Positions 11,581 through 54,902 of a stretch of DNA of 64,000 bases are shown one piece after another. The notes beneath the pieces were generated by a model. The model was not told the DNA's origin. It was given only the letters and a program-made list of their open reading frames with translations, and searched no databases. Made by a program: the position numbers and the translations under genes. Position 1 is the first letter of the stretch, and each line of letters begins with the position of its first letter. This DNA comes from Neoarius graeffei (lineage: Eukaryota; Chordata; Actinopteri; Siluriformes; Ariidae), in the NCBI RefSeq assembly GCF_027579695.1, contig NC_083578.1, positions 4,940,460 through 5,004,459 of the forward strand, in the 5' to 3' direction.

Positions 11581-11753
11581 TATCTAGTTATCTGTTCATT
11601 AGAAAAACGAGCCGTGTAGTCCGTCGGTTGAAATTGATCCATTCTGTACACGAGTGCAGCAGTATTCAGCGGTGTTTTTGACCGACAAGATGGGGGTTGT
11701 GTACTTTCCGGTCACGTGACTGCAAGATCTCTATAGTATAGTATAGTATAGTC

Positions 11754-32794: not shown

Positions 32795-35246
32795 ATGGGA
32801 AGAGGATCACCAATCCTCCTAATTCTGCGCCAGCAAATAGTGGAGCAATATCAGAAAGGAGTTCAACAGTGTAACATTGCAAAGAGTTTAAACATATCAT
32901 CATCTACAGTGCATAATATTATCAAAAGATTCAGAGAATCTGGAAGAATTTCTGTGCGTAAGGGTCAAGGCCGGAAAACCATACCGGGTGCCTGTGATCT
33001 TCGGGCCCTTAGTTGGCACTGCATCACATACAGGCATGCTTCTGTATTGGAAATGACAAAATGGGTTCAGAAATATTTCCAGAGAACATTATCTGTGAAC
33101 ACAATTCACCGTGCCATCCGCCGTTGCCAGCTAAAACTCTATAGTTCAAAGAAGAAGCCGTATCTAAACACGATCCAGAAGCACAGACGTCTTCTCTGGG
33201 CCAAGGCTCATTTAAAATGGACTGTGTGCTCCCATCACCCAATCAAGCATCCAGCCAGAGCAGGTCATGGTATTTTTTAACCATATTAACATGCCATTGT
33301 TGTGTATTATGCCTGATGTCAAGACTCTCGTCTCTGCGAGCCTACCACACAGACTTAATACTTGTGTCATTTTAGGGCATACCTAACAACCAGTGTCCCC
33401 CCCCCCCAAATCTGTCCCTCTGAGTTACATGTCGGTCCTGGGATCGAGATGCTAACCTCTTCTGCTCCTCGGACCTGCTTGATCCATCCTGGTGCCCTGT
33501 GTCTGGTTGGAGTCTCATTGCATCGCTCCTGTGGAGGATGGCCCCATGAAGACAGTTGAAAGTTACACCTGGAGGACGCTCTGGACTCTTACAGTAATGC
33601 TTTTATGGCTGAGGACTACAGTTGACTTGCTTACTTTAGGACTGCAGTTGTCATGAACAGTTTTGCATTCAAGTTTCCATCAATGAAGAGTTACAACATC
33701 AACGAAACTGTCTTCATGTTAAAACTGTTAATATTATAGTCATGCATATTTTTAGGGCATACCTAACAACCTGTGTTTTCTCTCTCCCCCCCCCCCAATC
33801 TGTCCCTCTGAGTTACATGTTGGTCCTGGGATTGATATGCTGGCCTCTTCGGCCCCTCGGACCTGCTTGATCCATCCTGGTGCCCTGTGTCTGGTCGGAG
33901 TTTTATCGCATCGCTCCTGTGGAGGACGGCCCCATGAGGACAGTTGAGGGTTACACCTGGAGGACGCTCTGGACTCTTACAGTAATGCTTTTATGGCTGA
34001 GGACTACAGTTGACTTGCTAACTTTAGGACTGCAGTTGTCATGAACAGTTTTGCACTCAAGTTTCCATCAATGAAGAGTTACAACATCAACAAAACTGTC
34101 TTCATGTTAAAACTGTTAATGTTATAGTCATGTTGTCTGTTGCCCAAATGAGGATGGGTTCCCTTTTGAGTCTGGTTCCTCTCAAGGTTTTTCCTCATGT
34201 CGTCTAAGGGAGTTTTTCCTTGCCACGTCGCCACAGGCTTGCTCATTGGGGATAGATTAGGGACAAAATTAGCTCATATTTTAAGTCGTTCAAATTCTGT
34301 AAAGCTGCTTTGCGACAATTTTTATTGTTAAAAGCGCTATACAAATAAACTTGACTTGACTTGACTCATGCTGTCTGTTGTTGCCCAAATGAGGATGGGT
34401 TCCCTTTTGAGTCTGGTTCCTCTCGAGGTTTCTTCCTCATGCCGTCTGAGGGAGTTTTTCCTTGCCACCGTCGCCACAGGCTTGCTCATTGGGGATAGAT
34501 TAGGGATAAAATTAGCTCATGTTTTAAGTCGTTCAAATTCTGTAAAGCTGCTTTGCGACAATGTTTATTGTTAAAAGTGCTATATAAATAAACTTGACTT
34601 GACTGTGGCAAAGTGGAAAACTGTTTTGTGGTCAGACGAATCAAAATTTGAAGTTCTTGATGGAAATCAGGGACGCCGTGTCATTCGTACTAAAGAGGAG
34701 AAGGATGACCCAAGTTGTTATCAGCGCTCAGTTCAGAAGCCTGCATCTCTGATGGTATGGGGTTGCATTAGTGCGTGTGGCATGGGCAGCTTACACATCT
34801 GGAAAGACACCATCAATGCTGAAAGGTATATCCAGGTTCTAGAGCAACATATGCTCCCATCCAGACGACGTCTCTTTCAGGGAAGACCTTGCATTTTCCA
34901 ACATGACAATGTCAAACCACATACTGCATCAATTACAGCATCATGGCTGCGTAGAAGAAGGGTCCAGGTACCGAACTGGCCAGCCTGCAGTCCTGATCTT
35001 TCACCCATAGAAAACGTTTGGCGCATCATAAAACGAAAGATTCGACAAAAAAGACCTAAGACAGTTGAGCAACTAGAATCCTACATTAGACAAGAATGGG
35101 TTAACATTCCTATCCCTAAACTTGAGCAACTTGTCTCCTCAGTCCCCAGACGTTTACAGACTGTTGTAAAGAGAAAAGGGGATGTCTCACAGTGGGAAAC
35201 ATGGCCTTGTCCCAACGTTTTTGAGATGTGTTGTCATGAAATTTAA
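32795..35246 (+). pseudogene. Tc1 transposase, open except for one insertion
   Basis: The N-terminal part (32795-33226; helix-turn-helix [25 protein letters not shown]) and the C-terminal part (34601-35246; [29 protein letters not shown]) are in register once the 1381-bp insertion plus duplication is accounted for. No other stop is seen, unlike copy A. The start is placed at the MGRGSPI methionine; an upstream in-frame ATG at 32741 also exists. The fusion frame through the insertion stops at 33280, so the copy is inactive as it stands. Confidence 0.92.
33227..34600 (+). mobile_element. Family R insertion with internal tandem duplication
   Basis: The 7-bp target duplication gactgtg is at 33220-33226 and 34601-34607. 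The insert contains partial repeats in series. One starts at tagggcatacctaacaacc (33375) and a second at the same word (33756) runs to a full tail at 34345-34367. A third, shorter 3' part runs from 34368 to the tail at 34600. The reiterated tails (acttgacttgact) look like template-switching or concatemer products of LINE-type integration. Confidence 0.85.
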
Positions 35247-35494
35247 AATCACCTAATTTTTCTCTTTAAATGATACATTTTCTCAGTTTAAACATTTGAT
35301 ATGTCATCTATGTTCTATTCTGAATAAAATATGGAATTTTGAAACTTCCACATCATTGCATTCCGTTTTTATTTACAATTTGTACTTTGTCCCAACTTTT
35401 TTGGTATCGGGGTTGTACTTGGTCATTTATTTTTTGAGGAAAATGATCCAATATTACATATCTGTGAGTGGCAAAAGTATGTGAACATTTGCTT

Positions 35495-36430
35495 TCAGTA
35501 TCTGGTGTGACCCCCTTGTGCAGCAATAACTGCAACTAAACATTTCCAGTAACTGTTGATCAGTCCTGCACACCGGCTTGGAGGAATTTTAGCCCGTTTC
35601 TCCGTACAGAACAGCTTCAACTCTGGGATGTTGATGGGTTTCCTCACATGAACTGCTCGCTTCAGGTCCTTCCACAACATTTCGATTGGATTAAGGTCAG
35701 GACTTTGACTTGGCCATTCCAAAGCATTAACTTTATTCTTCTTTAACCATTCTTTGATAGAACGACTTGTGTGCTTTGGGTTGTTGTCTTGCTGCATGAC
35801 CCACCTTCTCTTGAGATTCAGTCCATGGACAGGTGTTCTGACATTTTCCTTTAGAATTCGCTGGTATAATTCATAATTCATTGTTCCATCAATGATAGCT
35901 AGCCGTCCTGGCCCAGATGCAGCAAAACAGGCCCAAACCATGATACTACCACCACCATGTTTCACAGATGGGATAAGGTTCTTATGTTGGAATGCAGTGT
36001 TTTCCTTTCTCCAAACATAACGCTTCTCATTTAAACCAAAAAGTTCTATTTTGATCTTATCCGGCCACAAAACATTTTTCCAATAGCCTTCTGGCTTGTC
36101 CATGTGATCTTTAGCAAACTGCAGACGAGCAGCAATGTTCTTTTTTGGAGAGCAGTGACTTTCTCCTTGCAACCCTGCCATGCACACCATTGTTGTTCAG
36201 TGTTCTCCTGATGGTGGACTCATGAACATTAACATTAGCCAATGTGAGAGAGGCCTTCAGTTGCTTAGAAGTTATCCTGGGGTCCTTTGTGACCTTGCCG
36301 ACTATTACATGCCTTGCTCTTGGAGTGATCTTTGTTGGTCGACCACTCCTGGGGAGGGTAACAATGGTCTTGAATTTCCTCCATTTGTACATAATCTGTC
36401 TGACTGTGGATTGGTGGAGTCCAAACTCTT
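35495..36430 (-). pseudogene. Tc1 transposase, family E, C-terminal and middle part
   Basis: Minus strand, from the insertion junction: GLHQSTVRQIMYKWRKF, SGRPTKITPR, then at 36190 onwards the core with an altered first catalytic block (WPDKIKIELFG, where SDE is usual), Asp in QQDNNPKH and Glu in SPDLNPIEMLW. A frameshift near 36130-36180 separates two open segments. The N-terminal codons are at 53983-54068, beyond the 17.5 kb insertion. Confidence 0.9.
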
Positions 36431-37302
36431 TACCCCATGTGCACAGATTACATGGCCGACCGTGATATAACTGCTCCTGACCATCACAAAAGTGCGAACA
36501 GCATGCCTGAGCGCTTCTCTGGTAATTGCACAGCAGTCACTGAGTGCTATACAAGCAGGGCTTAATTTGAGTCGGAACATGACGGAACAAGATCTGGAAC
36601 CTCCGTCGTCGAATCCGGCAGCTATTTTCATTCCATTCGGTGTTCCGGCAGCTATTTAAATGGATCAGATCACCTCCGTGACCATCACAAAGGGAAAAAA
36701 AATCAAACAATAAATTAAATAAATAATTAAATAAAAATTTGTTTAGTGTTCGGTTTTGATTTTGATATCTGTTGTTGATTTCTCTCCTATGACATCCACA
36801 AAATCTATGCGAAAGGGGAAGGAGGGGACATGGGGTGTATACTTCCGTTCAATAGAACACCGGGTTTTTTGTAGCCGTTAGCTTGCGCTGTGGAAAAAAT
36901 GGCAAAAAAACAAGAAAGCTTACTAAAATTTTTCAAAGTCCCAGGACAGCTGGATCCTAGGCAAGGCAAGGCAAGGCAAGGCAAGTTTATTTATATAGCA
37001 CATTTCATACACAATGGCAGTTCAATGTGCTTTACAGAAGTAAAAACAAAAACAGTAAACAATAGAGAAATAAAATTACATAAAATAATTTTATTTTTAT
37101 TCTAAAACAATTAATTAAAAGAATTAAAAGAATTAAAAGAAAATAATAAGAATTAAACAATAGTAGAAATAAAATAATAAAATGCCAAAAAGAAAAAGGA
37201 GAAAAAGAAAAAGAAACCAGCAGAATAAAATAGAATAAAGTTAAAGTAAATTTAAAACATGCAGAAAGTAAAGATTATAAAAAATGTAAAAATATTAATT
37301 AT

Positions 37303-40300
37303 TTAACAGAAAGCATCTGAAAACAGCTTGGTCTTTAACCTAGATTTGAAGCTGCCAACAGCAGGAGCATTTTTAATGTCCTCTGGCAGTTGGTTCCATA
37401 GCTGTACTGCATAGTAGCTAAAAGCTGCTTCACCACACTTTGTTTTAACAACTGGTTTTAATAGTAAATTTTTCTGCTGCGATCTGGTAGATCTGATTGG
37501 GTTAGGCCGCTGCAACATATCAGAGAGGTAATTGGGCCCTGTACCATTTAGAGATTTGTACACCAGCAGCAATGCTTTAAAGTCAATTCTGTAGCTTACT
37601 GGAAGCCAGTGAAGGGACCTTAGAATTGGAGTAATGTGCTCTGTTCTTTTTGTTCGTGTGAGAACCCTCGGCGCTGCATTTTGAACCAGCTGAAGTCGTT
37701 TGATGGTCTTTTTTGGCAGGCCTGTGAAAAGGCCATTGCAGTAATCAACCCTACTAGAGATGAAGGCATGTATTAGTTTTTCCAGATCATTTTTTGACAT
37801 AAGTCCTCTTAGTTTGGAAATGTTTTTTAGGTGATAAAATGCCGTTTTAGTGATTGCTTTCATGTGACTGTCAAAGTTTAGCTCGCTGTCAATGAAAACA
37901 CCAAGATTTTTAACCATTTCTTTAGTTTTAATCCCTTTTGTGTCAAGAATAGTGGTAATCCTGAGTCTTTCATCTTTTTTTCCAAATAGAATTACTTCTG
38001 TTGTATCTGTGTTCAGCTGAAGAAAATTTTGTGACACCCAGTTGTTGATTTGGTCGATACACTGGTAGAGACATTCAAGGGGGGCATAATCATTAGGTGA
38101 TAGAGCAAAATAAATTTGGGTATCATCTGCATAGCAGTGATACAAAATTGAATTTTTATTGATAATTTGCCCAAGTGGGAGCATATAAAGGTTGAAAAGT
38201 AATGGTCCAAGAATCGACCCCTGGGGGACACCACAGTTCAAGGGCATTGACGTTGAGGAACAATTTCCCAGGGTAACAAAGAAGCTTCTATCTTTTAAGT
38301 ATGATTTTAACCAATTGATAACTTTACCAGTCAATCCAACCAAGTGTTCAAGTCGATATAGCAGTATGTTGTGATCAGCAGTATCAAAAGCTGCACTGAG
38401 GTCCAGTAATACCAGGACTGATGTTTTGCCTGCATCAGTATTAAGACGTATGTCATTTATAACTTTAATCAGCGCTGTTTCAGTGCTATGATTGGCATGA
38501 AATCCTGACTGAAAATTATCAAAACGGCTGTTTGATATTAAGAAGGCAGTTAATTGATTGAAGACAATTTTTTCCAGGATTTTCCCGATGAATGGTAGAT
38601 TTGATATTGGCCTGTAGTTATTTAACACTGAAGGATCCAGATTATTTTTTTTTTAAGAAGGGGCTTTACAACAGCTTTTTTTAGGGACACAGGAACAACG
38701 CCAGTCTCCAAGGATGTATTTATAATTTGAAGCACATCTGTAATTATAAGATGAAGAACAGACTTAAAAAAGTTGGTGGGCAGAATGTCCAGTTCAGATG
38801 TTGAGGAACTGAGATTTTGTACAGTTTTTTCAAGAGTCTCATAATCAATTAAACAAAATTCTGACATTGTGTTAAAGTTATCTATCTGTGTCATTGGTGA
38901 TTGCAGTTTTTCAATTTTTTGCAACTGAGATATATTATGAGAAATATTCTGCCGTATATTATCAATTTTACCTTTGAAAAAGGATGCAAACTCATTGCAT
39001 TTATTAACTGAGAGAAGTTCAGGTGCTAATTGTGGTGGGGGATTAGTTAGTTTCTATACTGTTGAAAATAGCACACGGGCATTGTTCATATTCCTGCTGA
39101 TGATGTTGGAGAAGAAAGACTGTCTTGCTTTACGAATTTCATAATTATAATTACAAAGCATCTCTTTATGGATTTGATAATGGATGTGAAGGTTAGATTT
39201 GCGCCATTTTCTTTCAGTCTTTCTACATTCTCTCTTTAGCAGTTTAACAGCCGGGTACTGCTTCCATGGTGCTTTCTGCTTATCATTGACTCTTTTTTAT
39301 TTTGAATGGAGCAATATCATCCATAATTTGGGTCATATTTAAATTAAAAAATTCCAGTAAATCATCTACAGAGTCTGACATTTTGGTTGAGTTCTGAGAG
39401 AGAGCTTGCTCAAAAAGAGCACATGTGTTGTCTTTTATGACTCTCCTACCTATAGTCGTTGAGCTATTCTGAATGTGAGGAGACATAGAAACTTCAAAGA
39501 AAACACAGAAATGATCAGATAAGGCCAGGTCAACAACAGTATAAGAAACAGTAAGACCCTTTGTGATGACGAGGTCAAGAGTATGACCACGAGAGTGGGT
39601 CGGCCCCTGTACATGTTGTACTAGGTTAAAGTTATCAATAATTGCAAATAGTTCTTTGGCATAAATGTTATCAGTATTATCCACATGTAAGTTAAAATCC
39701 CCAGATATAATAAGACAATCAAACTCTAAGCAAATGACTGATAACAGTTCACCAAACTCTTCAAGAAAGACTTTGGCTGAATGTCTCGGAGGCCTATAAA
39801 TAGTTAATAATAATATGTTAGGAGAGCATGTAACAAGTGCACATAAGTGTTCAAAGGACATAAAATCACCAAGTGAGGATTGTTTACATTGAAAAGAGAC
39901 TTTGAATATATTTGCGATCCCTCCACCTTTCCCTTGTCGGGTAACATTCAAAAAATTAAAATTTGGGGGAGCTGCTTCGATAAGGGTGGTAGCACTATTT
40001 GCTTGATCCAGTCAGGTTTCAGTTAGAAGCAAAAAATCAAGATTGTGTTTACAAATAAGATCATTAATTAAAAATGACTTGTTTAAAAGTGATCTAATGT
40101 TCAGAAGAGCTAGCTTTACAGAAATTCTAGAAGCAATATTTGGTTGTGCACTCTGATGCTGTTTTAAAACAGGAAGGAGATTAGATTGGTTCACCCCCAG
40201 GGTTAAATGTGCTCTATGTTTTCTGTTTCTTATCAACACAGGAATAGTGTCAACATCGGGTCCCAGCTTTTTTTCAACACATCCATTTGCAGGGACCCAG

Positions 40301-40314
40301 AGTACATCAAACAA
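37303..40314 (-). pseudogene. L2 ORF2: endonuclease and reverse transcriptase
   Basis: Endonuclease: LLNIRSLLNKS and LLLTET at 40170-40013; IYRPPRHS, LIISGDFNLHVD, THSRGHTLDLVIT and ALSDHFCVFF through 39283. [14 protein letters not shown] (38626), [48 protein letters not shown], and a C-terminal domain to FSDAFC at 37303. It nicks target DNA and reverse-transcribes its own RNA. Breaks: TGA in place of the usual Trp codon after TET (40012-40014), a stop ending the endonuclease frame near 39283, a frameshift in the linker, and another at an A10 run near 38645. The sister copy has A7 at the same place with the same phase break. Confidence 0.88.
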
Positions 40315-42020
40315 GACTTTCTAAATGTTCCATTTGGTTTGAGGGTGAAAGGATTGGAGATGACATGTATCTTTTGGATGGTGAAAAAGATTTGTAGCCA
40401 GCTGAAAGTCCTGGACGAACACAATTTTGATGAACTGGGTACACTGCTTGTTGCGACAGATTTGGGCTGGAAAAAGAGAGTGTAGCCATTGGGAGCAATT
40501 TTTTCATGCTATTTGGGAAATCCATCCGAGGAGAAATGGAGTCGTCTGTCCTTGAATGTTGGGAGGCCTGCAAGTCAGATGTTTGTGTGTCCTTGATGAC
40601 GACTTGCAAAGATGATTGTTTAGGCTTTGTAACTATGTCAGTCTGCGACATCTTATCAACTGTTTTCCTCGGTGCTGGCTGAGAAAAGATTGCAAGTTTG
40701 TAGTGGTCTGCTAAGACTTTGGCTCCAGTCCAGCTGAGTTCAGTGCTATTTGGCTTGTAAAATTCTTTGCGATTCCAAAAAAGGTTAAAATTGTCTATGA
40801 AATTCATACCAAATGAAGAACAAGTTTTTCCAAGCCAGGTGTTAAGACTGAAGAGTCGAGAAAAAGCAAAACTTCCTCTCGCTGGGAGTGGGCCACTGAT
40901 AAAAGATTGAATTCCAGTCTTATAGAGCTCAGAAAAAAGTTTTCTGAAATCATCTTGGACAAACAGGCGGCATGGTGGTGTAGTGGTTAGCGCTGTCGCC
41001 TCACAGTAAGAAGGTCCTGGGTTCGAGCCCCGTGGCCGGCGAGGGCCTTTCTGTGCGGAGTTTGCATGTTCTTCCCGTGTCCGCGTGGGTTTCCTCCGGG
41101 TGCTCCGGTTTCCCCCACAGTCCAAAGACATGCAGGTTAGGTTAACTGGTGACTCTAAATTGACCGTAGGTGTGAATGTGAGTGTGAATGGTTGTCTGTG
41201 TCTATGTGTCAGCCCTGTGATGACCTGGCGACTTGTCCAGGGTGTACCCCGCCTTTCGCCCGTAGTCAGCTGGGATAGGCTCCAGCTTGCCTGCGACCCT
41301 GTAGAAGGATAAAGCGGCTAGAGATAATGAGATGAGATCTTGGACAAACAGCTGTTCTCTGAAAACATCATTTGCTCCCACATGCACAACAATACGTTTA
41401 ATAGTTTTATGCTCGGACATGAGTTTCAAAATGCTGTCTTTGGTGTCAGAGATGGATGCATTTGGAAGACAACAAATAATCATCTCATAACCTTTTAATT
41501 GTCTTACAGTGGAATCACCAAGAACAAGGGTTGTGGGATCAGGTGGTGTTACGAGCTGCTTTTTGCCTCTTCCCACAGCTCTTCGATCTTGGTGTGATCT
41601 CTTTTTACTCTGTGTTTGCCCGCTTGACAAATCCTCTTCCACATCCCTGAGGCATTCAAATTTGTTCTGAAGCCTTATGGGCTGTGGATTTTCCATAGGA
41701 TTGTAGATCCTATTGTAATTTGTAGAACGAGCTGGTGTTGAAGTAATTAGTCTTCTGTTTTTGTTTTTGGGCTTAGCACCCATCATTTTCCAGTTTTCAG
41801 TACTCACAGGTTGAGTTATGAATTCTTCCACTTGGTCTGCAATGTCCTCAGTCTGTCAGAGTGCAATCTCTGCATTCTCAGCCACTGTTTCAGTACTCCT
41901 TTCCTGAGATATCGCTTTTAATTTGTCCGTCTTTGGCAGAGCATTAATCTTTGATTCCAGAATAGAAATCCTCTGTTCTAATTCCATGCATTTTCTGCAG
42001 GATTTTTTGCTTCCTGGCAT
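40307..42020 (-). pseudogene. L2 ORF1 with SGNH-esterase-like domain
   Basis: It starts MPGSKKSCRKCMELEQRISI (a CxxC pair plus a short coiled coil). A TGA at codon 55 (41858-41856) interrupts it; a basic, disordered stretch follows (KKRSHQDRRAVGRGKK). The esterase-like domain has block I TLVLGDSTVRQL (catalytic-type Ser in GDS) and block III VVHVGANDV (G.ND). The SINE at 40967-41336 cuts the frame after LFVQD. Beyond it are the rest of the domain (SGPLPARG, TWLGKTC) and the last block FYKPNSTELSWTGAKVLADH, where the usual D..H pair is N..E. ORF1 esterase domains are known in CR1/L2 elements. It ends at 40307, overlapping the ORF2 start by a few bases. Confidence 0.78.
40967..41336 (+). mobile_element. 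tRNA-derived SINE, copy 5
   Basis: A perfect 15-bp target duplication, atcttggacaaacag, lies at 40952-40966 and 41337-41351. It is inserted into L2 ORF1, on the opposite strand to the LINE. It has a clean head (gcggcatggtggtgtagtgg) and a short tail (gatgag), so it is one of the youngest events here. Confidence 0.98.
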
Positions 42021-42210
42021 TTAAAAAAAAAAAATAGTGGAAATTAAATTAAAATTAAATTAAAAGCTTATAAAGATGAAAAATAAAAAAAAAATAAAAA
42101 AATAAAATAGTGGAAATTCAATGAGAAAGTAAAGTATAGAAATAAAGATTAAGAAAGCAGGAGCAAAGCAAAGAAGCGTCCTACTCGCTTGAGTAGGAGG
42201 AGCAGAAAAA

Positions 42211-44397
42211 AGTAAACGACCTAAAATGGACGATGTTGGACACAGTGACACTGCACCAGCTGCAAGTGTACCAGACTACATTTCAACAGGAATGGACAGA
42301 GGAATTCGCCTTTATGGGGTGAAAGGGTTCTGCTTTGTGTCCAATAGGCCTATACAATGACAAGATTGCATCGATGAAACAATGAAATAAAGCGGCACTT
42401 CGAAACACGCCAAGCTACGTTTGCGTCAAAATATTCAGCGGGGGACAGGAGGAAGACGGCATGTCAAGAGCCTCTTCATTATGAAAAAGAATATATTACA
42501 CTCAAATTGTTGGTCATACGTAAAAATGCATTTTAGTTGTATTCAGCATCACTTTTTATATATGGCTCTCACGAAAATGTATTTGAAAATATGTGGCTTT
42601 CATGGCTCTCTCAGCCAAAAAGGTTCCCGACCCCTGCCTTAACGTATGTGTGGAGAGCGAGAGTGAACTTGAGTGCCTGTTTGGAGAACATCCTGAGCGT
42701 TGTCCATTGTTCTCCAGGATTTGATAACTGTTGCTGTTGCAATACATGTCATGCATTAGGCGTGTGTGCGTAAAGTTATAGTAAACCGCCCCCCGCCTTT
42801 TTTTTTTGAGTCACCGGACCCACCCACCTCCTGCGTTCCGGGACCTCCCACTTCACAAATTAAGCACTGTATACAAGTGTTATGCGAGTAGCACTGGACT
42901 AACACTCAATCACATATCTCATAAATAATGTAGTAAACAACACATTTCCTGATTATTTAGCATTCTTTGCATGAGTTTCAAGCCATCAACTTATTTTTTT
43001 GATTATTCTTTTTTTTTTGCAAAAAAATGCACTTATGCTTGGTGCTAACTTGTTCCTGGATACACTATTGTTCTGCATTTGTGTAGCACTTTTACAACTA
43101 TTTTTGGTAAAGGTAATTTGCGGGAGTATTTCCTTAAAACTGGCGCCCTCATGTCACGAAAATACGCTCGACAAATATTCACCCGACTGAAGCACCTCAC
43201 TATATTGTGTCCCAGGATGTTCACAATACTTATGAACCACCTCCTTGTTTAAAGTAGTTCATGCCATAAACATATGCATGACATATCGGTGGGCCATGCC
43301 ACCCACCCCAGGGGGGAGGGGCCAACCGCAGGGGATTAATGATACAGCTGATTACATCCAGCCTCATCCTCGAACTCACCATTCGCGTTGTTCTTGCATG
43401 GTGCAGCAGTATTCTTGTACAGCGGAAAAGTGTGCTTGCATAGTGCAGCAGTGTTCTTGAAGAGCACTAAAGTGTGCTTGCAGTAGGACGGATCGCCACA
43501 TAGGGCCAAGCCTAAGCTGGAAATCATCGTTAGGCCTAGGGCCTACACTTCTTGAGGTAAGTAGACCCATTTACATCCATTTTAATTGTAAAGCAGATTA
43601 AAGTGAAATTCTCACCCTTAGGCCCTTAGAGGAATAGGTCAGGTGTTTATATCAGTTTGAATTAATTAATGATTTTTAAAAATTAATATCACTTTGAGTT
43701 ACATTGGGGTTATGCCTTTGGCTTTGCTTTGAAGCATTTGCAAATATGATACTAGGTGGCTGAAATCAGTGATGACCAAGGACTAAAGGATGAGATAGAC
43801 GATTTAATGTGCAACAAGTCTGGACAATCTTTTTTTTTTTTTCCAGAATACCCTAATACCTATTACTTTATTTTTATTATGGCATAAGTCATATGGTTAT
43901 GGGACAGAAACAGCTGGGCCTGTGAGCCGAATTTACTGGCAGTACTGCCACCTCATGGCGTAATATCACAAGAGACCAGAGAACAGAGGCATAGGTTCAA
44001 ATTTATTTTATTTAGTTACTATAATCAAATTAAATTTCATGCAAGTCTAAGGAAAACCAGATTCATACAAAAGTCAATGTGTTGTAGATTTTGTTCTGCA
44101 CCCATTTAAGGCACTACTGACTCCAGAAATGCATCCAATCAGAGAGGAGCTTGCAAGCTTGTTCGAATCGAAAACAAAATGGCGATGGCATGCAAATGTC
44201 ACATGTTTTATTCTCGGTGGTATTTCAAGGATTTTACATACTTAACAATGAGGCAATGATCTGCAACTAACCAAAATAAAGGTAATACAGATCTTAGAAT
44301 AGTCCTAGAATTTGAGATGGGAAAACATAAGGTTGTATCAGCCTGTTAAATTTTCATTTTTGGGTAAATCCATTACCGAATGAAGACTTGGTAATTT
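42211..44397. other. Right part of the hAT relic, then non-coding element sequence
   Basis: 42211-42869 is hAT interior, including at ~42595-42640 the end of another hAT-like MITE (..aggttcccgacccctg). 42870-44397 belongs to the 17.5 kb element; at 43390-43490 are about 2.5 copies of a ~42-bp tandem repeat (agtgtgcttgcatagtgcag). No gene is recognised. Confidence 0.5.
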
Positions 44398-45748
44398 AAC
44401 TTTGATAATACAGGCGAGTGTAAAAAAAAGGTCTCATTCATCAATGTTTAATGTTATCAGACCTTATTTTTCATATATTCCTCGTTTAATGCACAAAAAT
44501 GTTTCATTAGTGAAAAAAAACACATACAATGATGCACAGTTTCTTCAGCTCCCATACATTTATTCAAAATTCTTACGTGCAGATATCACGGGCAAGAGAA
44601 AGGGAGCTGCTTCCATGAGGGAATATCGGAAAAGAAGAGCGGAATCCTTACGTGCTTGTCAAAACACGGCCAATAGTCTTGGAGACAAAGATGATTCCTC
44701 AACATCGGATCATACTGAGAACTTTACCCATGGTGCTGATGTTAATGATGACGTGGAAACAAACTCTGTAATTCATGATGCTAATTATGATGGTCTGCAG
44801 GTAGAAAGTACTGATGAAGAAGATAATGAATCAGTACGGGTGGACTGTGGTAACGATGTTTACGAGATCAACTGGTTGGATGCCTTGAAGGATCCAGAGA
44901 ATCAGAACATTTTGAAAGATGACTTATCTCAGTGGTCAATAGATGAGAAGATCCTGACATGTAGTCTGAGTGGACTACGGCTGTTTGACAGATTCTTATC
45001 TTAAGAAGTGCAACATTCATACAGTGGAAGTGGCGAACCCATTATTTTTGAATATTTCTATGTTCGGACTGAACACTAATGACAAGGAGCGTATATAACT
45101 TCAACAGGGATAATTATTTTCTTTCTACAGGTGATAGGGTGCCAGCCATACCCGATGTATTTGAGGATATAAACAAAGAAACAACAAGGAAGAGGGCCAT
45201 AGATGCCAAACCAGAGAGCGTGTGCCGTTCAATGATAGATGATAATGACAGAGAAAAGGTGGTGGAACTCTCAGGCATGGAGGAAGCAGAGAGGCTCAAA
45301 CAACTTGAGGGGGACATCTCATCCTCTGATTCAGAGACTGACCAGCCAACAAAAAGGCGCAAAATGAACAAAGGAGGAGATTGGGACAGACCTGCACTAA
45401 AGAAAACGACCAAGCAGACATGTGTCAGATGTCAGACGTCAGATGTGCCTATGAGGAAAGTCCCGACAAGCTATACCACTCCTCAGCCCAAACCCAGTAG
45501 TGTGGGTCCGACCCACACAACACCAAAGTCTGGGATGTCCAGGAGGATAGAATACAAAACAACAGTGAAGATGTCAGCATGGTCACAGGACCAAACACCA
45601 CAAAGAGAGATGGATATTGCCAGTAAGTAAAAAAGAATGGTTAAATTAAGGTGTGATATAATATTTATTGTTTGTATATTACATTATATTTAATTTGTAT
45701 CATACAGGTTTTGAATTTAAGAATTTTAACTTTGGATCTGGTCATTTC

Positions 45749-46310
45749 TGTTAGGACTGGGACTGTTTTGGCCTCTAGAGGCCGCTGTTATGTTTATCTT
45801 GTCATGTTTGTTTTGGCCTCTAGAGGCCGCCACTGTGTTTTGTGTGTGTCTTGATTGCCTGTTTCCTGCCCCGCCCTGTTCCTTAATTAGTTTGTGTATA
45901 AATACCCCTCTGTTTGTTCCCTTGTCATGGAGTCTTTATGCTATGTTGTCTAGTGCTAGTTTCCTCTGTCCCACGGTTCTTGCCTTTGCCCTTGTGTTTT
46001 TGATATTTTTGCTTTCTTTGGACTTTGTACTTTTTGATCTTCTGAGCGTTCAGCATTTTTGCCTTTCCTTTTGTTTTTGGACTTTGCACCTTTGGATATT
46101 TTTATTTTTGTTATCTTCTGAGCTTTTGGATTTTCTTTTTGTTTTTTCCATCGGATTGTAAATATTGTATATAGTGTAAATAAACTGTTTTTTGATACTC
46201 TACTTTCGCCTCATGCCTCTGCACTTGAGTCATCCCCCTGGTGGCCTAGTGGGGGTTTGCTGGATTATCACACCAGCGATCCGGGTTGGAATCCCAGCAA
46301 AACCCTAACA
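45749..46310 (+). repeat. 5' LTR (562 bp)
   Basis: TG..CA ends. TATA box tataaata at 45897-45904. Predicted transcription start about 45927 (atggagtctttatgc). Polyadenylation signal aataaa at 46179-46184. The tctagaggccgc word is repeated near the start (45774 and 45817), and a tRNA-like module ends it (46236-46305). Confidence 0.95.
45897..45904 (+). promoter_or_regulatory. LTR TATA box
   Basis: TATAAATA lies exactly 30 bp upstream of the first base of the 11-nt segment complementary to the primer site, so the transcript should start at or next to that segment. Confidence 0.8.
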
Positions 46311-46311
46311 G

Positions 46312-46322
46312 AAAGACTCCAT
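46312..46322 (+). promoter_or_regulatory. Self-priming primer-binding site
   Basis: AAAGACTCCAT, one base after the LTR, is the exact reverse complement of ATGGAGTCTTT at 45927-45937 in the LTR. No tRNA-type TGG start is present. This is the arrangement described for Tf1 and the vertebrate Tf1/sushi group, where the 5' end of the RNA folds back to prime reverse transcription. Confidence 0.85.
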
Positions 46323-46323
46323 C

Positions 46324-47270
46324 ATGACTGACTCAGCAGAGGCTTCTTCAACTGTCTACCCGGCTAACTTTCAGGGAATTATGGCTGCTTTAACACGCTT
46401 CGGAGCTACCATGGATGAACTCTTGCAAGCCAACGTGAGACCCTTACTTGCCACGAGGTACTGCTTCAGCAGATTGGGAAAACCCTGGCACAGCTGACTT
46501 CTCTACCCCCATCTCCGCTGCCTCCTTCACCTCGTGAACCCAGCCTTCCTGCACCACAGAGGTATGACGGCAAGCACAGTGAGTGCCGGGAGTTCCTTAC
46601 CCAGTGCCAACTTACCTTTGAGCTCCAGCCTACCACCTACACTACAGATCGCCGCAAGATTGCCTTTGTGATAACCTTGTTAGCTGGTAAGGTGTGAGCC
46701 TGGGCCATAGCTATCTGGCAGAGACAGGGACCCGAGTGCTCTGATTTCCAGCTGTTTACGGAGGAGATGCTTCATGTCTTTGATCAAGCTGACATCAGTA
46801 AAGACGCAGCCAGAAAGCTCATGTCCATCCGGCAAGAAGGAAGCGTCGTGGACTACACCATCGCGTTCCGGACGCTCGCAGCAGTCAGCGGATGGAACGA
46901 AACAGCCCTGGTTTCAGCCTTTCACCATGGTTTGTCTGACCCCATCAAAGATGGCCTGGCCTCTATCGGATGCCCAAGTGACCTCGAAACTCTGATCTCA
47001 CATTCTACTCATCTTGACAACAGGATTAGAGAGCGCTGCCGAGTCCTGAGCTTCCCCGGCCTCACTGCCTCGACCTGGAGCCCGTCTACCTCCTCCAGTG
47101 ACTGTCCAGAGCCCATGCAAGTTGGCTGTACTCGTCTCTCCGCAGCTGAGAGGGAGTGCAGAAGGAGGGACAAGTGCTGCATCTACTGTGGCAAGCCTGG
47201 CCATTTCCGAGCATCATGTCCCGAGCTCTCGGGAAAAGGACCGCCCTGTCCAGCCGAGGGAGGGTTGTGA
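46324..47270 (+). pseudogene. gag (matrix/capsid-like plus zinc knuckle), broken
   Basis: The ATG at 46324 opens MTDSAEASSTVYPANFQGIM. A frameshift near 46435-46450 moves the reading to the frame that continues to 47270. A TGA lies at 46695-46697. The capsid region has FHHGLSDPIKDGLA and SIRQEGSVVDYTIAFRTLA, the retrotransposon gag pattern. The nucleocapsid zinc knuckle [15 protein letters not shown] is at about 47176-47220. Gag forms the particle and binds RNA. The downstream frame stop is at 47268-47270, past the slip site. Confidence 0.88.
47231..47237 (+). promoter_or_regulatory. Candidate -1 ribosomal frameshift site
   Basis: G_GGA_AAA sits in register with the gag frame just after the zinc knuckle. 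Slipping back one base there enters the pol frame directly before the protease region. The relation of frames (pol is -1 to gag) matches that known for sushi-type elements and PEG10, whose site is GGGAAAC. Confidence 0.65.
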
Positions 47271-50200
47271 CGGGGCCTACCCTCTCTCCTGAACTCCCTG
47301 GCCAAGGAGTCTACATCCCGGTCTCCATCTCCTGGGGTGAGTCTGTCCACTCTTGTCAGGCCTTGTTAGACTCCGGGGCGGCTGGAAACTTTATGGATGT
47401 CAACTTCGCCCAAAGTATCAATGTCCCGACTGCACCTCTTGAAGTCCCACTGTCCGTGTCTGCCCTGGATGGCCAAGCCTTAGGTGACGGAAGAGTCACC
47501 CAAGTAACTTCTCCAGTCTTCCTCCAGTTTCAAGGTCACAAGGAAGAAATATCCCTGCACCTTATTCCTTCACCAGAGTTCCCAGTTATTCTAGGTCTTC
47601 CCTGGCTTACCCGCCACAACCCTCGTATAGACTGGGTCACTAGCCAGGTTGTGGAGTGGGGTCCTGCTTGCTATGCCTCTTGTCTGCTCTCTAGCTCTCC
47701 TGTGTCTCCTGCCGAGCCTCCTGATCTCACCGAATTATCTCAAGTTCCCACAGAGTACTGGGATCTCAAGGAAGTTTTCAGCAAGAGCAGGGCCACCGTT
47801 CTTCCTCCGCACCGTGCCTACGACTGTGCCATCGACTTGCTCCCTGGGACTACCCCTCCTCGTGGCAGACTGTTTTCCCTCTCTCAGCCAGAACGCAAGG
47901 CCATGGAGGAGTACATCAAGGATGCCTTGGCCTCTGGGATCATTCGACCCTCCACCTCACCTGCTGGTGCCGGCTTCTTCTTTGTCGGCAAGAAAGATGG
48001 GGGGCTCTGGCCATGTATTGATTACAGGGGTCTGAACAAGATCACTGTACGCAACCGCTATCCCCTTCCGCTGATGTCCACAGCGTTCGATCTGCTCCAA
48101 GGCGCCAGTGTCTTCACCAAATTGGACTTACGGAACGCATACCACCTCATCCGTATCCGACAGGGAGATGAGTGGAAGACTGCCTTTAACACCCCGTCTG
48201 GGCATTACAAGTACCAGGTGATGCCCTTCGGACTCACCAACGCACCAGCTGTTTTTCAGGCCCTAATCAACGACGTCTTGAGGGACATGATTAACCAGTA
48301 CATTTTTGTCTTCCTCGACGACATCCTAATCTTCTCCAAGACCGTGCAGGAGCACCGCCACCATGTCCGCCAGGTTCTCCAGAGGCTGCTACAGAACAAT
48401 CTGTTCGCTAAGGCCCAGAAATGCGAATTTCATGTTCCCGAGGTCTCCTTTCTGGGTTTTATTGTACGGATGGGCCAACTCCAGATGGATCCAGCCAAGA
48501 CCCTGGCCGTCCAGGACTGGCCCACCCCCAAGTCCGTCAAAGAGGTTCAGCGGTTCTTAGGATTTGCTAACTTCGACCGCAAGTTTATCAGGAACTTCAG
48601 TTCCGTAGCAGCGCCCATATCGGACCTCACCAAAGGGACAGGTGGATCGTATGTCTGGTCTCCTCAGGCGGAAAAGGCGTTCAAAGACCTCAAGCACCGC
48701 TTCTGCACGGCACCCATTCTGGTCCTCCCGGACCCTTCGCAACCCTTCATCGTCGAGGTGGATGCCTCGGACAGCGGTGTCGGCGCGGTCCTCTCTCAAC
48801 GCTCGTAAGGAAGGTTGCACCCCTGCGCATACTTCTCCCACCGCCTGAGTTCTGCAGAGTGCCGGTATGACATGGGGGATCGAGAACTGCTAGCAGTTAA
48901 ACTGGCCCTTGAGGAGTGGAGGCACTGGCTGGAGGGAGCGCAACATCCATTTTTGTTCTGGACAGACCACAAGAACCTGGAGTACCTCCAGCAAGCAAAG
49001 AGACTCAATCCATGACAGGCTAGGTGGGCCTTGTTTTTCAGTCGGTTTGACTTTACCCTATCATACCGCCCTGGCTCCAAAAACACCAAACCTGATGCGC
49101 TTTCCAGGCTGTTCGCTCCCACCAACAGGGAGAGCGAAGTTGGGCCTATTATCCCTGTGTCCCGGATTGTCGCCCCTGTCCACTGGGGTATTGAGGAGGC
49201 CGTCCGACGAGCCCAACGCCAGGACCCCGGTCCTGGGACGGGGCCACCGGGCCTCTTGTATGTCCCACATCAAGCCCGGGCCAAGGTTCTCCAGTGGGGT
49301 CACTCGTCCCCTCTCACCGGCCACCCGGGAGCTCGAAGGACCCTGGACTTCCTGAGAAGACGCTTCTGGTGTCCAAGCATGGAGAAGGAAGTGAGGTCAT
49401 TCGTCCTTTCCTGCGAGGTGTGCACCAGAAGCAAGAACCCACGACAGCATCCCCAGGGCCTCCTGCATCCTCTGCCCATTCCCCGGCATCCCTGGTCTCA
49501 CGTGGCAGTCGACTTCATCACGGGTCTCCCTGAGTCTCAAGGTAACACTGTCATTTTGGTCATAGTGGACAGATTCTCCAAGGCCTGCCACTTTATACCA
49601 CTGTGCAAGCTCCCTTCTGCCCTTGAAACTGCTAAACTTATGTTCAATCACGTCTTCCGCGTCTTTGGTCTCCCACAGGATATCGTCTCTGACCGGGGGC
49701 CCCAGTTCTCCTCCCGAGTGTGGCACGGGTTTTGCAAGCTCATCGGAGCCACTGCCAGCCTCTCCTCTGGGTTCCACCCACAGTCCAATGGCCAGACGGA
49801 GAGCCTCAACCAGGACCAGGAAACCACCCTGCGAGGCCTGGCTATGGATAACCCGACTTCGTGGAGCACCTGGCTGCCATGGGCAGAGTACGCCCACAAC
49901 ACCCTGCAGTCATCGGCTACCAAGCTGTCGCCGTTCCAGTGCCAATTCGGGTTCCAGCCACCTCTCTTCCCGGACCAGGAGGAGGACGCGGGGGTGCCCT
50001 CGGTCAACCAATATGTGAGACGGTGTCGCAAGACCTGGAGCAAGGTCAGGAGGACCCTCATCCAGACCTCCAGAACCAACCAGACTCAGGCCAACCGCCA
50101 TAGAAGACCTGCCCACGCTTTCCGCCCTGGGCAGCGGGTTTGGCTGTCCACCAAGGACCTTCCACTGTGGGTGGAGAACCGCAAGCTTGCTCCTCACTAC

Positions 50201-50553
50201 ATTGGCCCCTTCAAGGTGGTGCGCAGGGTGAACCCTGTCGCTTACCGGCTCCAGTTGCCCCGGACTCTGAGGATCAACCCCACATTCCATGTTTCCCTGT
50301 TGCGACCCGTACTGACGTCCACGTATGCCCCTGCCCCTAGAAACCCCCCCGCATCTTCCAGGGTCAGACTGTGTTCACTGTGCATCACCTGCTTGACTCC
50401 CGCCGGGTCCCCGGCGGGCTTCAATATCTGGTAGACTGGGAGGGCTATGGCCCTGAGGAACGCTGTTGGGTCCCTGCCCGGGATATTTTAGATAAAGGAC
50501 TTTGTCGGGACTTCCATTCAGCCCACCCTGGGAAGGTCAGGAGACGCTCCTAG
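47240..50553 (+). pseudogene. pol: protease, RT, RNase H, integrase, chromodomain, broken
   Basis: Aspartic protease [13 protein letters not shown] near 47370. RT with [38 protein letters not shown] and the catalytic FLDDILIFS near 48320. RNase H with [16 protein letters not shown] near 48755 and [10 protein letters not shown]. Integrase HHCC from GHPGARRTLDFL to CEVCTRSK, then D (VAVDFITGL), D (VSDRGPQF) and E (NGQTESLNQ). The chromodomain [17 protein letters not shown] is near 50430. Breaks: TAA 48806-48808, TGA 49013-49015, and a frameshift at the C7 run 50344-50350 that separates the chromodomain. All else stays in one frame, so the copy was lost to a handful of mutations. Confidence 0.95.
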
Positions 50554-50562
50554 AGGGGGGGA
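50552..50562 (+). promoter_or_regulatory. Polypurine tract
   Basis: agaggggggga lies a few bases upstream of the 3' LTR start at 50566; it primes plus-strand DNA in LTR elements. Confidence 0.8.
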
Positions 50563-50811
50563 TCCTGTTAGGACTGGGACTGTTTTGGCCTCTAGAGGCC
50601 GCTGTTATGTTTATCTTGTCATGTTTGTTTTGGCCTCTAGAGGCCGCCACTGTGTTTTGTGTGTGTCTTGATTGCCTGTTTCCTGCCCCGCCCTGTTCCT
50701 TAATTAGTTTGTGTATAAATACCCCTCTGTTTGTTCCCTTGTCACGGAGTCTTTATGCTATGTTGTCTAGTGCTAGTTTCCTCTGTCCCACGTTTCTTGC
50801 CTTAGCCTTTG

Positions 50812-51176
50812 TCTCATCTCATCTCATTATCTGTAGCTGCTTTATCCTGTTCTACAGGGTCGCAGGCAAGCTGGACTACGGGCGAAAGGCGGGGTACACC
50901 CTGGACAAGTCGCCAGGTCATCACAGGGCTGACACATAGACACAGACAACCATTCACACTCACGTTCACACCTACGGTCAATTTAGAGTCACCAGTTAAC
51001 CTAGCCTGCATGTCTTTGGACTGTGGGGGAAACCGGAGCACCCGGAGGAAACCCACGCAGACATGGGGAGAACATGCAAACTCCGCACAGAAAGGCCCTC
51101 GCCGGCCACAGGGCTCGAACCCGGACCTTCTTGCTGTGAGGTGACAGCGCTAACCACTACACCACCGTGCCGCCCC
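50812..51176 (-). mobile_element. tRNA-derived SINE, copy 6
   Basis: It is inserted in the 3' LTR; gcctttg is repeated at 50805-50811 and 51177-51183. It lacks a ~20-bp piece (gagcctatcccagctga) present in other copies. Confidence 0.93.
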
Positions 51177-51377
51177 GCCTTTGCCTTTGTGTTTTTGATA
51201 TTTTTGCTTTCTTTGGACTTTGTACTTTTTGATCTTCTGAGCGTTCAGCATTTTTGCCTTTCCTTTTGTTTTTGGACTTTGCACCTTTTGGATATTTTTA
51301 TTTTTGTTATCTTCTGAGCTTTTGGATTTTCTTTTTGCTTTTTCCATCGGATTGTAAATATTGTATATAGTGTAAAT

Positions 51378-51634
51378 CAGGGGTGCCCAAATTGATCCAT
51401 AAAGGGCCATGTGGCTGCAGGTTTTCATTCCAGCCATGCAGCAGCACACCTGATTTGGCTCATTCAATCAACTGAACTGTCTTCACACAGTCAAATACTT
51501 GCAGCCACACCCACCCTTGATTAAAGGGTGGGTGTGTCAGTTGATTGAATAAGCCAAATCAGGTGTGCTGCTGCATGGCTGGAATGAAAACCTGCAGCCA
51601 CATGGCCCTTTATGGATCAATTTGGGCACCCCTG
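51378..51634. mobile_element. hAT MITE (257 bp)
   Basis: The 8-bp duplication gtgtaaat is at 51370-51377 and 51635-51642. Long inverted ends are caggggtgcccaaattgatc / gatcaatttgggcacccctg, extending ~85 bp each. It is inserted at the LTR's polyadenylation signal; the duplication restores aataaa on its right. Confidence 0.96.
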
Positions 51635-51696
51635 GTGTAAATAAACTGTTTTTGATACTCTACTTTCGCCTCACGCCTCTGTACTTCAGTCATCCA

Positions 51697-51766
51697 GCTA
51701 GTGGCCTAGTGGGGGTTTGCTGGATTATCACACCAGCGATCTGGGTTTGAATCCCAGCAAAACCCT
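51697..51766 (+). other. tRNA-like module at the LTR end
   Basis: An A-box-like TGGCCTAGTGG (51702-51712) and a B-box-like GGTTTGAATCC (51744-51754) lie at tRNA spacing. ctggg-tttgaat-cccag forms a perfect T-arm, and gctgg..ccagc an anticodon-arm-like hairpin with a 9-nt loop. The 5' LTR has the same module with a changed T-loop (46242-46294). Confidence 0.6.
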
Positions 51767-51968
51767 AACAATTTCTCTCTCAGATTATGCTAAAGTACTT
51801 TGGATATGTTCATAACATTTTGGATCAATCTCAGAATATATAATCCTTTGAAGCTATAAGATATGTAAAAGAAAATATTTGACACATTCCTGACTTGATC
51901 AGTGTATGAGGATACTTTGTATACAACCATATATTATAATAAATATTTATGTTTATTTATTTATGGAT

Positions 51969-52326
51969 GGGCAGCACAGTGGTGTAGTGGTTAGCACTGT
52001 CACCTCACAGCAAGAAGGTCTTGGGTTTGAGTCCAGTGGCTGATGAGGGCCTTTCTGTGTGGAGTTTGCATGCTGTCTGCGTGGGTTTCCTCCGGGTGCT
52101 CCAATTTCCCCCACAGTCCAAAGACATGCAGGTTAGGATAATTGGTGGCTCTAAATTGACTATAGGTGTGAGTGTGAATGGTTGTGTGTCTATGTGTCAG
52201 CCCTGTGATGACCAGGCGACTTGTCCAGGGTGTACCCTGCCTCTCGCCCATAGTCAGCTGGGATAGGCTCCAGCTTGCCTGTGACCCTGTAGAACAGGAT
52301 AAGCGGCTACAGATAATGGATGGATG
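51969..52326 (+). mobile_element. tRNA-derived SINE, copy 7 (older)
   Basis: The same family with more changes (gcagcacagtggtgtagtgg head, gtttgagtcc B box, ggatggatgg tail). It is inserted just upstream of a DUF4806 exon acceptor. Confidence 0.9.
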
Positions 52327-53689
52327 GAGTTATTTATGGTATTCTTTATATTTCTTTCAGCATTGGGAAGGACACTTGTTGGACAAATGTCAGAGATCAA
52401 AGATATGTTACGGTCACTATCAACGCACTTGTCCAATTTGGAGAAGAAAGGGAAGGGTACTAGCATATCTGATGCTTTGAGAATTCTGCCGCAACCACTG
52501 GAAACAAAGGAGGAGATTGACGCATTGGAAGAGATTGTCTCCAACAGCAAGGCAAGCCGGAGTGCAGTGGTGTGTAATTTCTATTTTTATTATTCAGGAA
52601 AGAGGCATGTGAAATCTCATGAGAATATGAATTTAATGGACACTTTAAACACATTGGAAGAGACAGAAACATGCCACTGTCCTGTGGTTTGTAATTATAT
52701 CACTATTCAGGGAAGGGTCATCACATATTGCACTCATAATGTAGCATTTAGAGTAAGAGTAAATAAAAGAACATGACAACCATACATAAAAGAATTATAG
52801 TGGGGTGGATATTATGTTTCAGGTTGATATGCTGTCCCAGGTTGGCGGACCAACTCCTGCCCACCTGGCTGTCAACATCATGAACTGAATAATGAAATGT
52901 ATAGCACAACTGCATTTCAACATTAGAGGGACAGGCCAGAAGGTGACATTTAAGAGTTACCGGCTCTACACAATGATCTTTGATGAGTTGGCGCTAAACC
53001 CTTATTCAAATATTTTATCATATAATATCTCATCTCATATAATATATTACATTTATTTCTGTTTTAGCACACACTGCAATAATATAGTATCATAATATAT
53101 ATTATAATGGGTGTAAGGCATTTACATGAGTTCACACAAGAAGAACAGGTTGATCTATTCAGACTACAATGAAGAATATGATTTGATGACTTTTTATATA
53201 AGTGTTAAAGATTTATAAGATGGCAATATTAATCATGGGCATTACTTTTCAGAAGCAGTCAAATTGGCCTTCTCAACGGAGAGGGCCAATTTAGATGAAG
53301 TTGTCCACATGGCCATCGTGGACACATTACATTCAGCTGGAGCAAAAGTGAAGAGGCTCAAGACGGTGGTTCCTCAGAATGCAACTGCAAAGGCTGATGG
53401 CCACATAGAGACAATAAATGATGATGATGATGGTAATGATGATCAGTGACACTGAAGTTTCCTTTTCAGCCATACTGCTCAGCCTTTGGAGGATATCTGC
53501 ATACTTGATATTTATTTTGGAAATTGATGTGTTTATCCCAAGATATTCAGTATAAACCCCAAAAATTGACGATGCTGTTTTATGAATGGAATGAAAGTTT
53601 GGTATGTTTTCCTTTATGTTGTTAAGAAATAAAATATTTATAAATTTATTCCATGCCTTTGAGTTCTATTTCATTAAAAGCAGATGCAA

Positions 53690-53960
53690 TGAAGGATGTA
53701 TAAATGCCATATATAATAGTATATAAGCACTACATAAGTGAGATATAAGAGCTATATAAGTGCTATAAAATAGCTACATAAGTGCAATAGAAATGCTATA
53801 GAAGTGCTACAGAAGTGCTATATTTACTGTGATGAAAGCGCTATATCTGACTGCTACAAAAGCGCTACAGAAGTGCAACGTTTGAGCGCTGACAGTGGTT
53901 ACACCTATTCTATAGCGCTATAAAAGCACTCATGAAAAGCGCTTTTATCTTGAGTTGTAA
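53690..53960 (-). repeat. Subterminal repeat array of the 17.5 kb element
   Basis: More than ten variants of agtgctata / aagcgctata / gtgctacaga occupy ~270 bp next to the right TIR. Such arrays are typical transposase-binding regions. Confidence 0.8.
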
Positions 53961-53982
53961 GTGCTGTTGTGTACATAGGGTA

Positions 53983-54068
53983 GAGATGGTTTTGTAACCT
54001 TTTCCAGTCTGATGAGCATCAACAATGCTTTTTCTGAGGTCCTCAGAAATCTCCTTTGTTCGTGCCAT
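53983..54068 (-). pseudogene. Tc1 transposase, family E, N-terminal codons
   Basis: From the ATG at 54068 on the minus strand the frame reads MARTKEISEDLRKSIVDAHQ and on to ..GYKTIS, meeting the 17.5 kb insertion. The protein resumes at 36430 with KEFGLHQ. Confidence 0.9.
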
Positions 54069-54435
54069 GATACACTTCCACAAACGTGTTGTGAAGATCA
54101 GACTTTGATAGATTCCTGTTCTTTAAATAAAACAGGGTGCCCACTCACACCTGATTGTCATCCCATTGATTGAAAACACCTGACTCTAATTTCACCTTCA
54201 AATTAACTGCTAATGCTAGAGGTTCACATACTTTTGCCACTCACAGATATGTAATACTGGATCATTTTCCTCAATAAATAAATGACCAAGTATAATATTT
54301 TTGTCTCATTTGTTTAACTGGGTTCTCTTTATCTAATTTTAGGACTTGTGTGAAAATCTGATGACGTTTTAGGTCATATTTATGCAGAAATATAGAAAAT
54401 TCTAAAGGGTTCACAAACTTTCAAGCACCACTGTA

Positions 54436-54902
54436 AATACTGAACACTTTAGATACTGAACCTGCTTGGTCACTTGTATACTGCTCTTTATCATGTCTTT
54501 TTGCACTAGATGCACATGTGGACACTGTAAACGCCTGAACCTGTTTTGCTCATTTGTTTATTGCTCACTGTCTTATCTTTTCCACGACGTTTTTGATGGC
54601 AGTCCCAGAAAGCCACCGCCAAAGCTGCAAACTGCTCCTCACACAACTGCTCCCATAGTGCTGAAGGAACAATGCCGATTGGTTTTGGACAGCCAAAAGC
54701 AGCATGGCCACGGGGTAATGCCCACTGATCACACTCACTGGAATGGCATAATTGGCGCCTTAATTCACCCTCCTCAAGCAGCCAGGGGAGTATTTTTATA
54801 CTCCCCTGGCTGCTTGAGGAGGGTGAATTAAGCTGCACTCTCCCTACACTCGCTCTTTCCTTATTTTTCATTAAACCACGCCATTTTTTTTGCACTGACT
54901 AT
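54436..54902 (+). repeat. LINE-like 3' tail, left half
   Basis: Wording such as tgcactagatgcacatgtgg and tttattgctcactgtct resembles fish LINE 3' UTRs. It appears to continue after the transposon at 59777-60010 (..ggagatcaataaagtgttatc). It contains the palindrome at 54759-54832. Confidence 0.45.
54759..54832. repeat. Perfect 35-bp inverted repeat, 4-nt loop
   Basis: Left arm 54759-54793 (cttaattcaccctcctcaag..) and right arm 54798-54832 are exact reverse complements separated by tttt. Confidence 0.98.

Follow-up and report, generated by a model that had tools for sequence, protein, structure and literature searches.

In the maize transposon En/Spm, TNPA has a binding and end-pairing role, and deletion derivatives are common among CACTA/En-Spm elements. 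The CACTA plan comprises subterminal repeats and a second open reading frame (ORF) of unknown function (PMC8978399). ESTA and PlavakaA, two CMCT lineages, have been described from fungi, and CMCT ends are mostly CA..TG (PMC12730594). The DUF4806 domain (Pfam PF16064) is described as a subtype of the BEN DNA-binding domain in PMC11075544, which cites Pan et al. 2023. It is counted 69 and 54 times in two Hydra species, compared with 0 to 6 times in the five other species tabled (PMC7642931), and a bark beetle shows enrichment for it (PMC13270666). Here, we analyzed 64,000 nucleotides of Neoarius graeffei DNA (NCBI RefSeq assembly GCF_027579695.1, contig NC_083578.1, positions 4,940,460 to 5,004,459, forward strand; hereafter the window), in which a segment bounded by terminal inverted repeats (TIRs) and containing exons of a DUF4806 gene interrupts a Tc1 transposon. 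An earlier reading of the letters alone (the sequence-only reading) had stated that DUF4806 proteins have no known function, which the description as a BEN subtype does not support.

The borders of the segment and its target site are as follows.

36431-36432, no strand: left TA target duplication, from empty-site joining
36433-36445, plus strand: left TIR, CCCCATGTGCACA, from the end pattern and empty-site joining
53968-53980, minus strand: right TIR, CCCTATGTACACA as read on that strand, from the end pattern and empty-site joining
53981-53982, no strand: right TA target duplication, from empty-site joining

The two inverted ends are identical at 11 of 13 positions, and the flanking bases are TTTA and TAGA. 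Joining the flanks with a single TA regained the Tc1 transposase frame ...GYKTISKEFGLHQSTVRQ... (in a wider reading, ...GYKTISKEFGLHQSTVRQIMYKW...), whereas joining them with two TAs broke it. The rejoined protein matched positions 1-51 of 53 of the Pfam profile HTH_SB, the helix-turn-helix of Sleeping Beauty. The borders of the outer element are thus fixed independently of the TIRs. When 13-mer pairs were drawn at random from the window with TA anchoring, an inverted match of at least 11/13 appeared in 40 of 400,000 draws; without anchoring, an equally good match appeared in 12 of 400,000. The end pattern without mismatches occurs at two places in the 64-kb window, both being the TIRs themselves. 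With up to two mismatches there were 7 hits including both TIRs (shuffle mean, 4.9; at least 7 in 24 of 100 shuffles). Comparison of the outer-element pieces with the window by blastn gave self-matches only, and hence no second copy within the window. A segment with inverted ends and TA flanks is inserted in a Tc1 element, as the sequence-only reading had observed in proposing inverted ends, a duplicated TA and an exact in-frame rejoining of Tc1.

That reading had also treated the segment as one 17.5-kb element. The whole segment (36433-53980) measures 17,548 bp, of which approximately 12.7 kb consists of other insertions (hAT-like, long interspersed nuclear element [LINE], Gypsy and short interspersed nuclear element [SINE]-like). 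The outer element itself comprises four pieces with a sum of 4840 bp, a few duplicated target bases included, and is thus approximately 4.84 kb in size. Apart from the last piece, which holds the gene end and the right terminus, its parts and the inserts are listed below.

36433-36555, plus strand: outer element, left subterminal part, from word count and periodicity
36548-36555, second copy at 42870-42877, no strand: 8-bp duplication TATACAAG of the hAT-like insert, from the sequence
36556-42869, no strand: nested hAT-like insert with ends CAGGGCTTAATTTG and CAGTGCTTAATTTG, foreign to the outer element, from ends and duplication
36959-41855 (outer limits approximate), minus strand: LINE within the hAT-like insert, from reverse transcriptase (RT) and endonuclease frames
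42878-45748, plus strand: outer element, middle part, between the hAT-like and Gypsy inserts
45749-51770, plus strand: nested Gypsy long terminal repeat (LTR) element with the 5-bp duplication ATTTC, foreign to the outer element, from LTRs and duplication
51771-51966, plus strand: outer element, intron part, between the Gypsy and SINE-like inserts
about 51967-52329, no strand: nested SINE-like repeat, foreign to the outer element, from the duplication TTATTTATGG

The claim that the segment moved as a unit holds in so far as something bearing both ends was inserted; whether it already carried the DUF4806 exons depends on the nesting. We infer that it did when Tc1 was entered, because the exons lie outside each of the three nested inserts whose limits could be drawn.

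The exons of this gene and the open frame upstream of it are listed here; P0001 denotes an uncharacterised protein of N. graeffei.

44384-45001, plus strand: open frame of 206 codons, first ATG at 44615, basic then acidic, with no Pfam or protein match
45131-45622, plus strand: DUF4806-gene exon encoding a charged linker, from its acceptor and gtaagt donor, 77-78% identical to P0001
52361-52569, plus strand: DUF4806 exon, first half of the domain, donor gtgtgt, from splice signals and PF16064
52823-52986, plus strand: DUF4806 exon, second half of the domain, with one in-frame stop, from splice signals and PF16064
53253-53449, plus strand: last DUF4806-gene exon, with the stop codon, from splice signals

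All four DUF4806-gene exons follow a pyrimidine-AG acceptor. When spliced, with the in-frame stop written as X, they passed the PF16064 threshold with 29.8 bits (gathering cut-off, 25), and the single frame 52303-52773 alone scored 13.4 bits. The spliced DUF4806 gene of the sequence-only reading is therefore present, in a copy with at least two defects: the in-frame stop and a faulty donor both lie in exon 52823-52986. The GT after 52986 throws the last exon out of frame, and one base earlier the join is in frame at a place that has no GT; in the spliced protein used for searching, this exon was ended at that earlier base. With the full spliced query, 3270 candidates included a single relative that reached E ≤ 0.001, namely P0001, its match starting within a few codons of the acceptor of the first preserved exon, with 77% identity over 105 columns. 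Residues 1-109 of P0001 had no credible match in the window (best E, 7.5, elsewhere). A match to P0001 that begins at an acceptor, with the residues before it unmatched in the window, fits a loss of the first DUF4806 exon. None of three queries, namely the DUF4806 part, P0001 and the frame at 44384-45001, had a relative in scans of viral contigs. A search of solved structures gave two matches each for the DUF4806 part and P0001 (E 0.099 to 0.9), which were taken as chance, and the predicted structure of P0001 (mean predicted local distance difference test score [pLDDT], 48.5) was too poor for structure searching.

The basic-acidic 5′ frame that had been reported was also found at 44384-45001, a basic part being followed by an acidic one. 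When this piece was shuffled 200 times, the longest frame had a mean of 105 and a maximum of 199 codons, compared with the 206 observed. The frame had no Pfam match, and a protein search with 44615-45001 gave 82 candidates, none at E ≤ 10. Its C-terminal part may resemble the start of animal transposase-like proteins, and the frame is possibly the start of a transposase. This copy is probably a non-autonomous deletion derivative, because no transposase was recognised in the frames scanned. In the simplest reading, a deletion arose between the 44384-45001 frame and the earliest DUF4806 exon still present, and it removed the rest of the transposase gene together with the first DUF4806 exon.

The right end of the outer element carries an array of short repeated words.

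53715-53824, plus strand: ten successive 11-bp units in register, consensus AGTGCTATATA, several diverged, from motif count and periodicity

The spacing of the units corresponds to roughly one per helical turn, and further AGCGCT-type words continue beyond the ten units to about 53945. The last 300 bp contained 12 AGYGCTAYA words with at most one mismatch (mean 1.3 and maximum 4 in 200 shuffles), a count in which one palindromic place is scored on both strands and the motif is derived from the same sequence. In a motif-free test of the right end, the self-match was 0.47 at lag 11 and 0.46 at lag 22, above the ceiling of 0.40 reached at any lag of 5-29 in 500 shuffles. The first 300 bp at the left end held 2 words (0.33 expected; shuffle maximum, 3). 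The subterminal array described earlier is thus clear at the right end and weak at the left, where it is not significant alone. The left words AGTGCTATACA, AGTGTTATGCG and AGTAGCACT hold the 11-bp step across the hAT-like insertion point when the insert is left out; AGTGCTATA, in the left subterminal part, opens these three 11-bp-spaced words, which resume past the insert.

On balance, we consider it somewhat probable that the segment is a degenerate and probably internally deleted cut-and-paste DNA transposon of approximately 4.84 kb, inserted at a TA in Tc1, whose full relatives possess a transposase and a DUF4806 protein acting on the array. Full-length relatives would encode a transposase cutting at CCCNATGTNCACA ends, and intact copies would supply this transposase to act on the CCCNATGTNCACA ends of other copies. 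The BEN-type DUF4806 protein would bind the phased subterminal words and either bring the ends together or regulate the element in the manner of TNPA in maize En/Spm, giving a two-protein system of the En/Spm kind by analogy; the present copy would have lost most of the transposase as well as the first DUF4806 exon. It is plausible, from this one locus, that DUF4806 is the transposon's own DNA-binding partner. Several results weigh against the proposal. The evidence comes from one locus, and the left array amounts to three words. No transposase was recognised by Pfam in those outer-element frames that were scanned, and the search with the 44615-45001 frame yielded no relative. The join to the last exon loses the frame if the nearest GT donor is used, P0001 has the linker without a match to the DUF4806 domain, and of the 278 candidates from a protein search with the DUF4806 part, none reached E ≤ 10.

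In an alternative explanation, the transposon is real but DUF4806 plays no part in its movement: a non-autonomous element would have captured a piece of a host gene, which it carries as a passenger. The broken state of the gene, its retained introns and the lack of a recognised transposase in the scanned frames would all agree with such a capture, and host copies to capture are reported: several DUF4806 genes in zebrafish, many in Hydra and an enrichment in the bark beetle. However, the end of the gene lies near the repeat array, a layout that also fits a resident gene, and the Hydra expansion is tabled beside DDE_3, hAT-dimer and HTH_Tnp, as would be expected of a gene resident in a transposon (PMC7642931). 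We regard a passenger as possible, though rather unlikely.

A more improbable explanation is a short inverted-repeat element, resembling a miniature inverted-repeat transposable element (MITE) or of Tc1/mariner type with a TA target, that has a patchwork interior in which the DUF4806 exons are one insertion among others. Duplication of a TA target is the rule in Tc1/mariner and the interior is indeed heavily nested, but the exons lie within none of the hAT-like, Gypsy and SINE-like inserts, each of which has a duplication of its own. No second pair of ends flanking the exons was noticed, no systematic search for one having been made, and phased subterminal arrays are not a hallmark of Tc1/mariner. 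It is very improbable that the ends match by chance and that the segment was brought into Tc1 by rearrangement. The shortness of the TIRs (13 bp, 2 mismatches) and the single locus would allow this, whereas the exact TA duplication with exact in-frame restoration of Tc1, and a TIR match at independently fixed borders that 40 of 400,000 TA-anchored random pairs equalled, argue against it.

In the reading that we favour, DUF4806 would be a resident transposon protein, and a common cause would then lie behind both its binding to DNA and its expansions. DUF4806 genes are numerous in several animals and their role is unexplained. Those of zebrafish (Chr4R), Hydra and the beetle resemble the present one in the PF16064 domain and in lineage-specific expansion or enrichment, and differ in that none is placed inside a TIR-bounded element in the parts of the published accounts that were covered. 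The Hydra and beetle expansions may be what a mobile gene would give, and other explanations would serve too. No published link between DUF4806 and a transposon was found in the portions of the literature searched, a result that is no proof of absence, as Repbase and most subscription journals lay outside that literature. As a tentative and rather doubtful extension, DUF4806/BEN genes might have their root in an animal transposon lineage, so far undescribed, that has CCC..GGG ends and TA targets, and might be its second gene. A BEN-type protein would read the helically phased 11-bp words as a counterpart of TNPA, and the scattered lineage-specific expansions in Hydra, the beetle and zebrafish chromosome 4 would be traces left by the lineage or host genes that arose from it. 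Were DUF4806 resident in the transposon, the 11-bp array would offer a ready-made candidate binding site for it, and animal BEN-type regulators would have an added source from which to be recruited.

The interrupted Tc1 (35413-36432 and 53981-54295) has 74-bp inverted repeats at 35413-35486 and 54222-54295 that are 96% alike. As these sit outside the TIRs, the ends described above were rejected as Tc1's own. Its transposase frame, too, has a shift between 36111 and 36196, so the target was already dead or died later. A second, different Tc1-like transposase frame adjoins it at 34575-35246, and the stretch 34901-35417, which overlaps this frame, is repeated at 11063-11582 with 97% identity. Downstream of Tc1, positions 54760-54831 form an inverted repeat of 72 bp that looks nearly perfect by eye (TTAATTCACCCTCC...GGAGGGTGAATTAA).

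Within the hAT-like insert, the LINE has a tail repeat (36959-36985), an RT (37303-38652) and an endonuclease (39283-40011), and its span includes a copy of a SINE-like repeat at approximately 40966-41306. A probable further copy of this LINE lies at 57893-58015, an incidental tblastn match with the same peptide. The LTRs of the Gypsy element align in three pieces with 93-98% identity; in the second LTR (51373-51639), two 103-nt arms are 97% complementary and 61 nt apart. The duplication of the SINE-like insert, read from the sequence, is at 51957-51966 and 52330-52339. The Gypsy and LINE reverse transcriptases were rejected as genes of the outer element, both lying within inserts that have their own duplications.

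Among known transposon groups, Tc1/mariner shares the TA target duplication with the outer element and differs in its termini (CAGT..) and in the phased subterminal array found here. In the scanned frames of the outer element, no Tc1/mariner DDE transposase was recognised; the interrupted Tc1 is the target and not the element. The ends of piggyBac start with CCC as well, but the target here is a TA within TTTA/TAGA and not TTAA. The outer element has duplicated TA only, compared with 7-8 bp in hAT and KDZ (the Zisupton group), Zisupton itself having 8 bp. A 7-bp duplication is given for Kyakuja and usually one of 8 bp for hAT (PMC12730594). From CACTA/En-Spm, the outer element differs in its CCC..GGG termini (CAC..GTG in CACTA) and its 2-bp TA duplication (3 bp in CACTA), and no Pfam match to the CACTA/En-Spm tnp2 domain was found in the scanned outer-element frames of this deleted-looking copy. 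Membership in CACTA as usually defined, piggyBac, hAT and KDZ was therefore rejected, because the ends and the target duplication do not fit. Arrays of the CACTA type, which stand at both ends, are clear here at the right and weak, not significant alone, at the left. PlavakaA, of the CMCT lineage, has a 2-bp duplication like the outer element and differs in its TGT..ACA termini (PMC12730594). The short TIRs, the subterminal arrays of direct and inverted words and a proposed two-ORF plan that includes a non-transposase protein are shared with CACTA/En-Spm of the CMC group (PMC8978399), and the TA duplication is shared with ESTA, an EnSpm-related fungal element of the CMCT lineage (PMC12730594).

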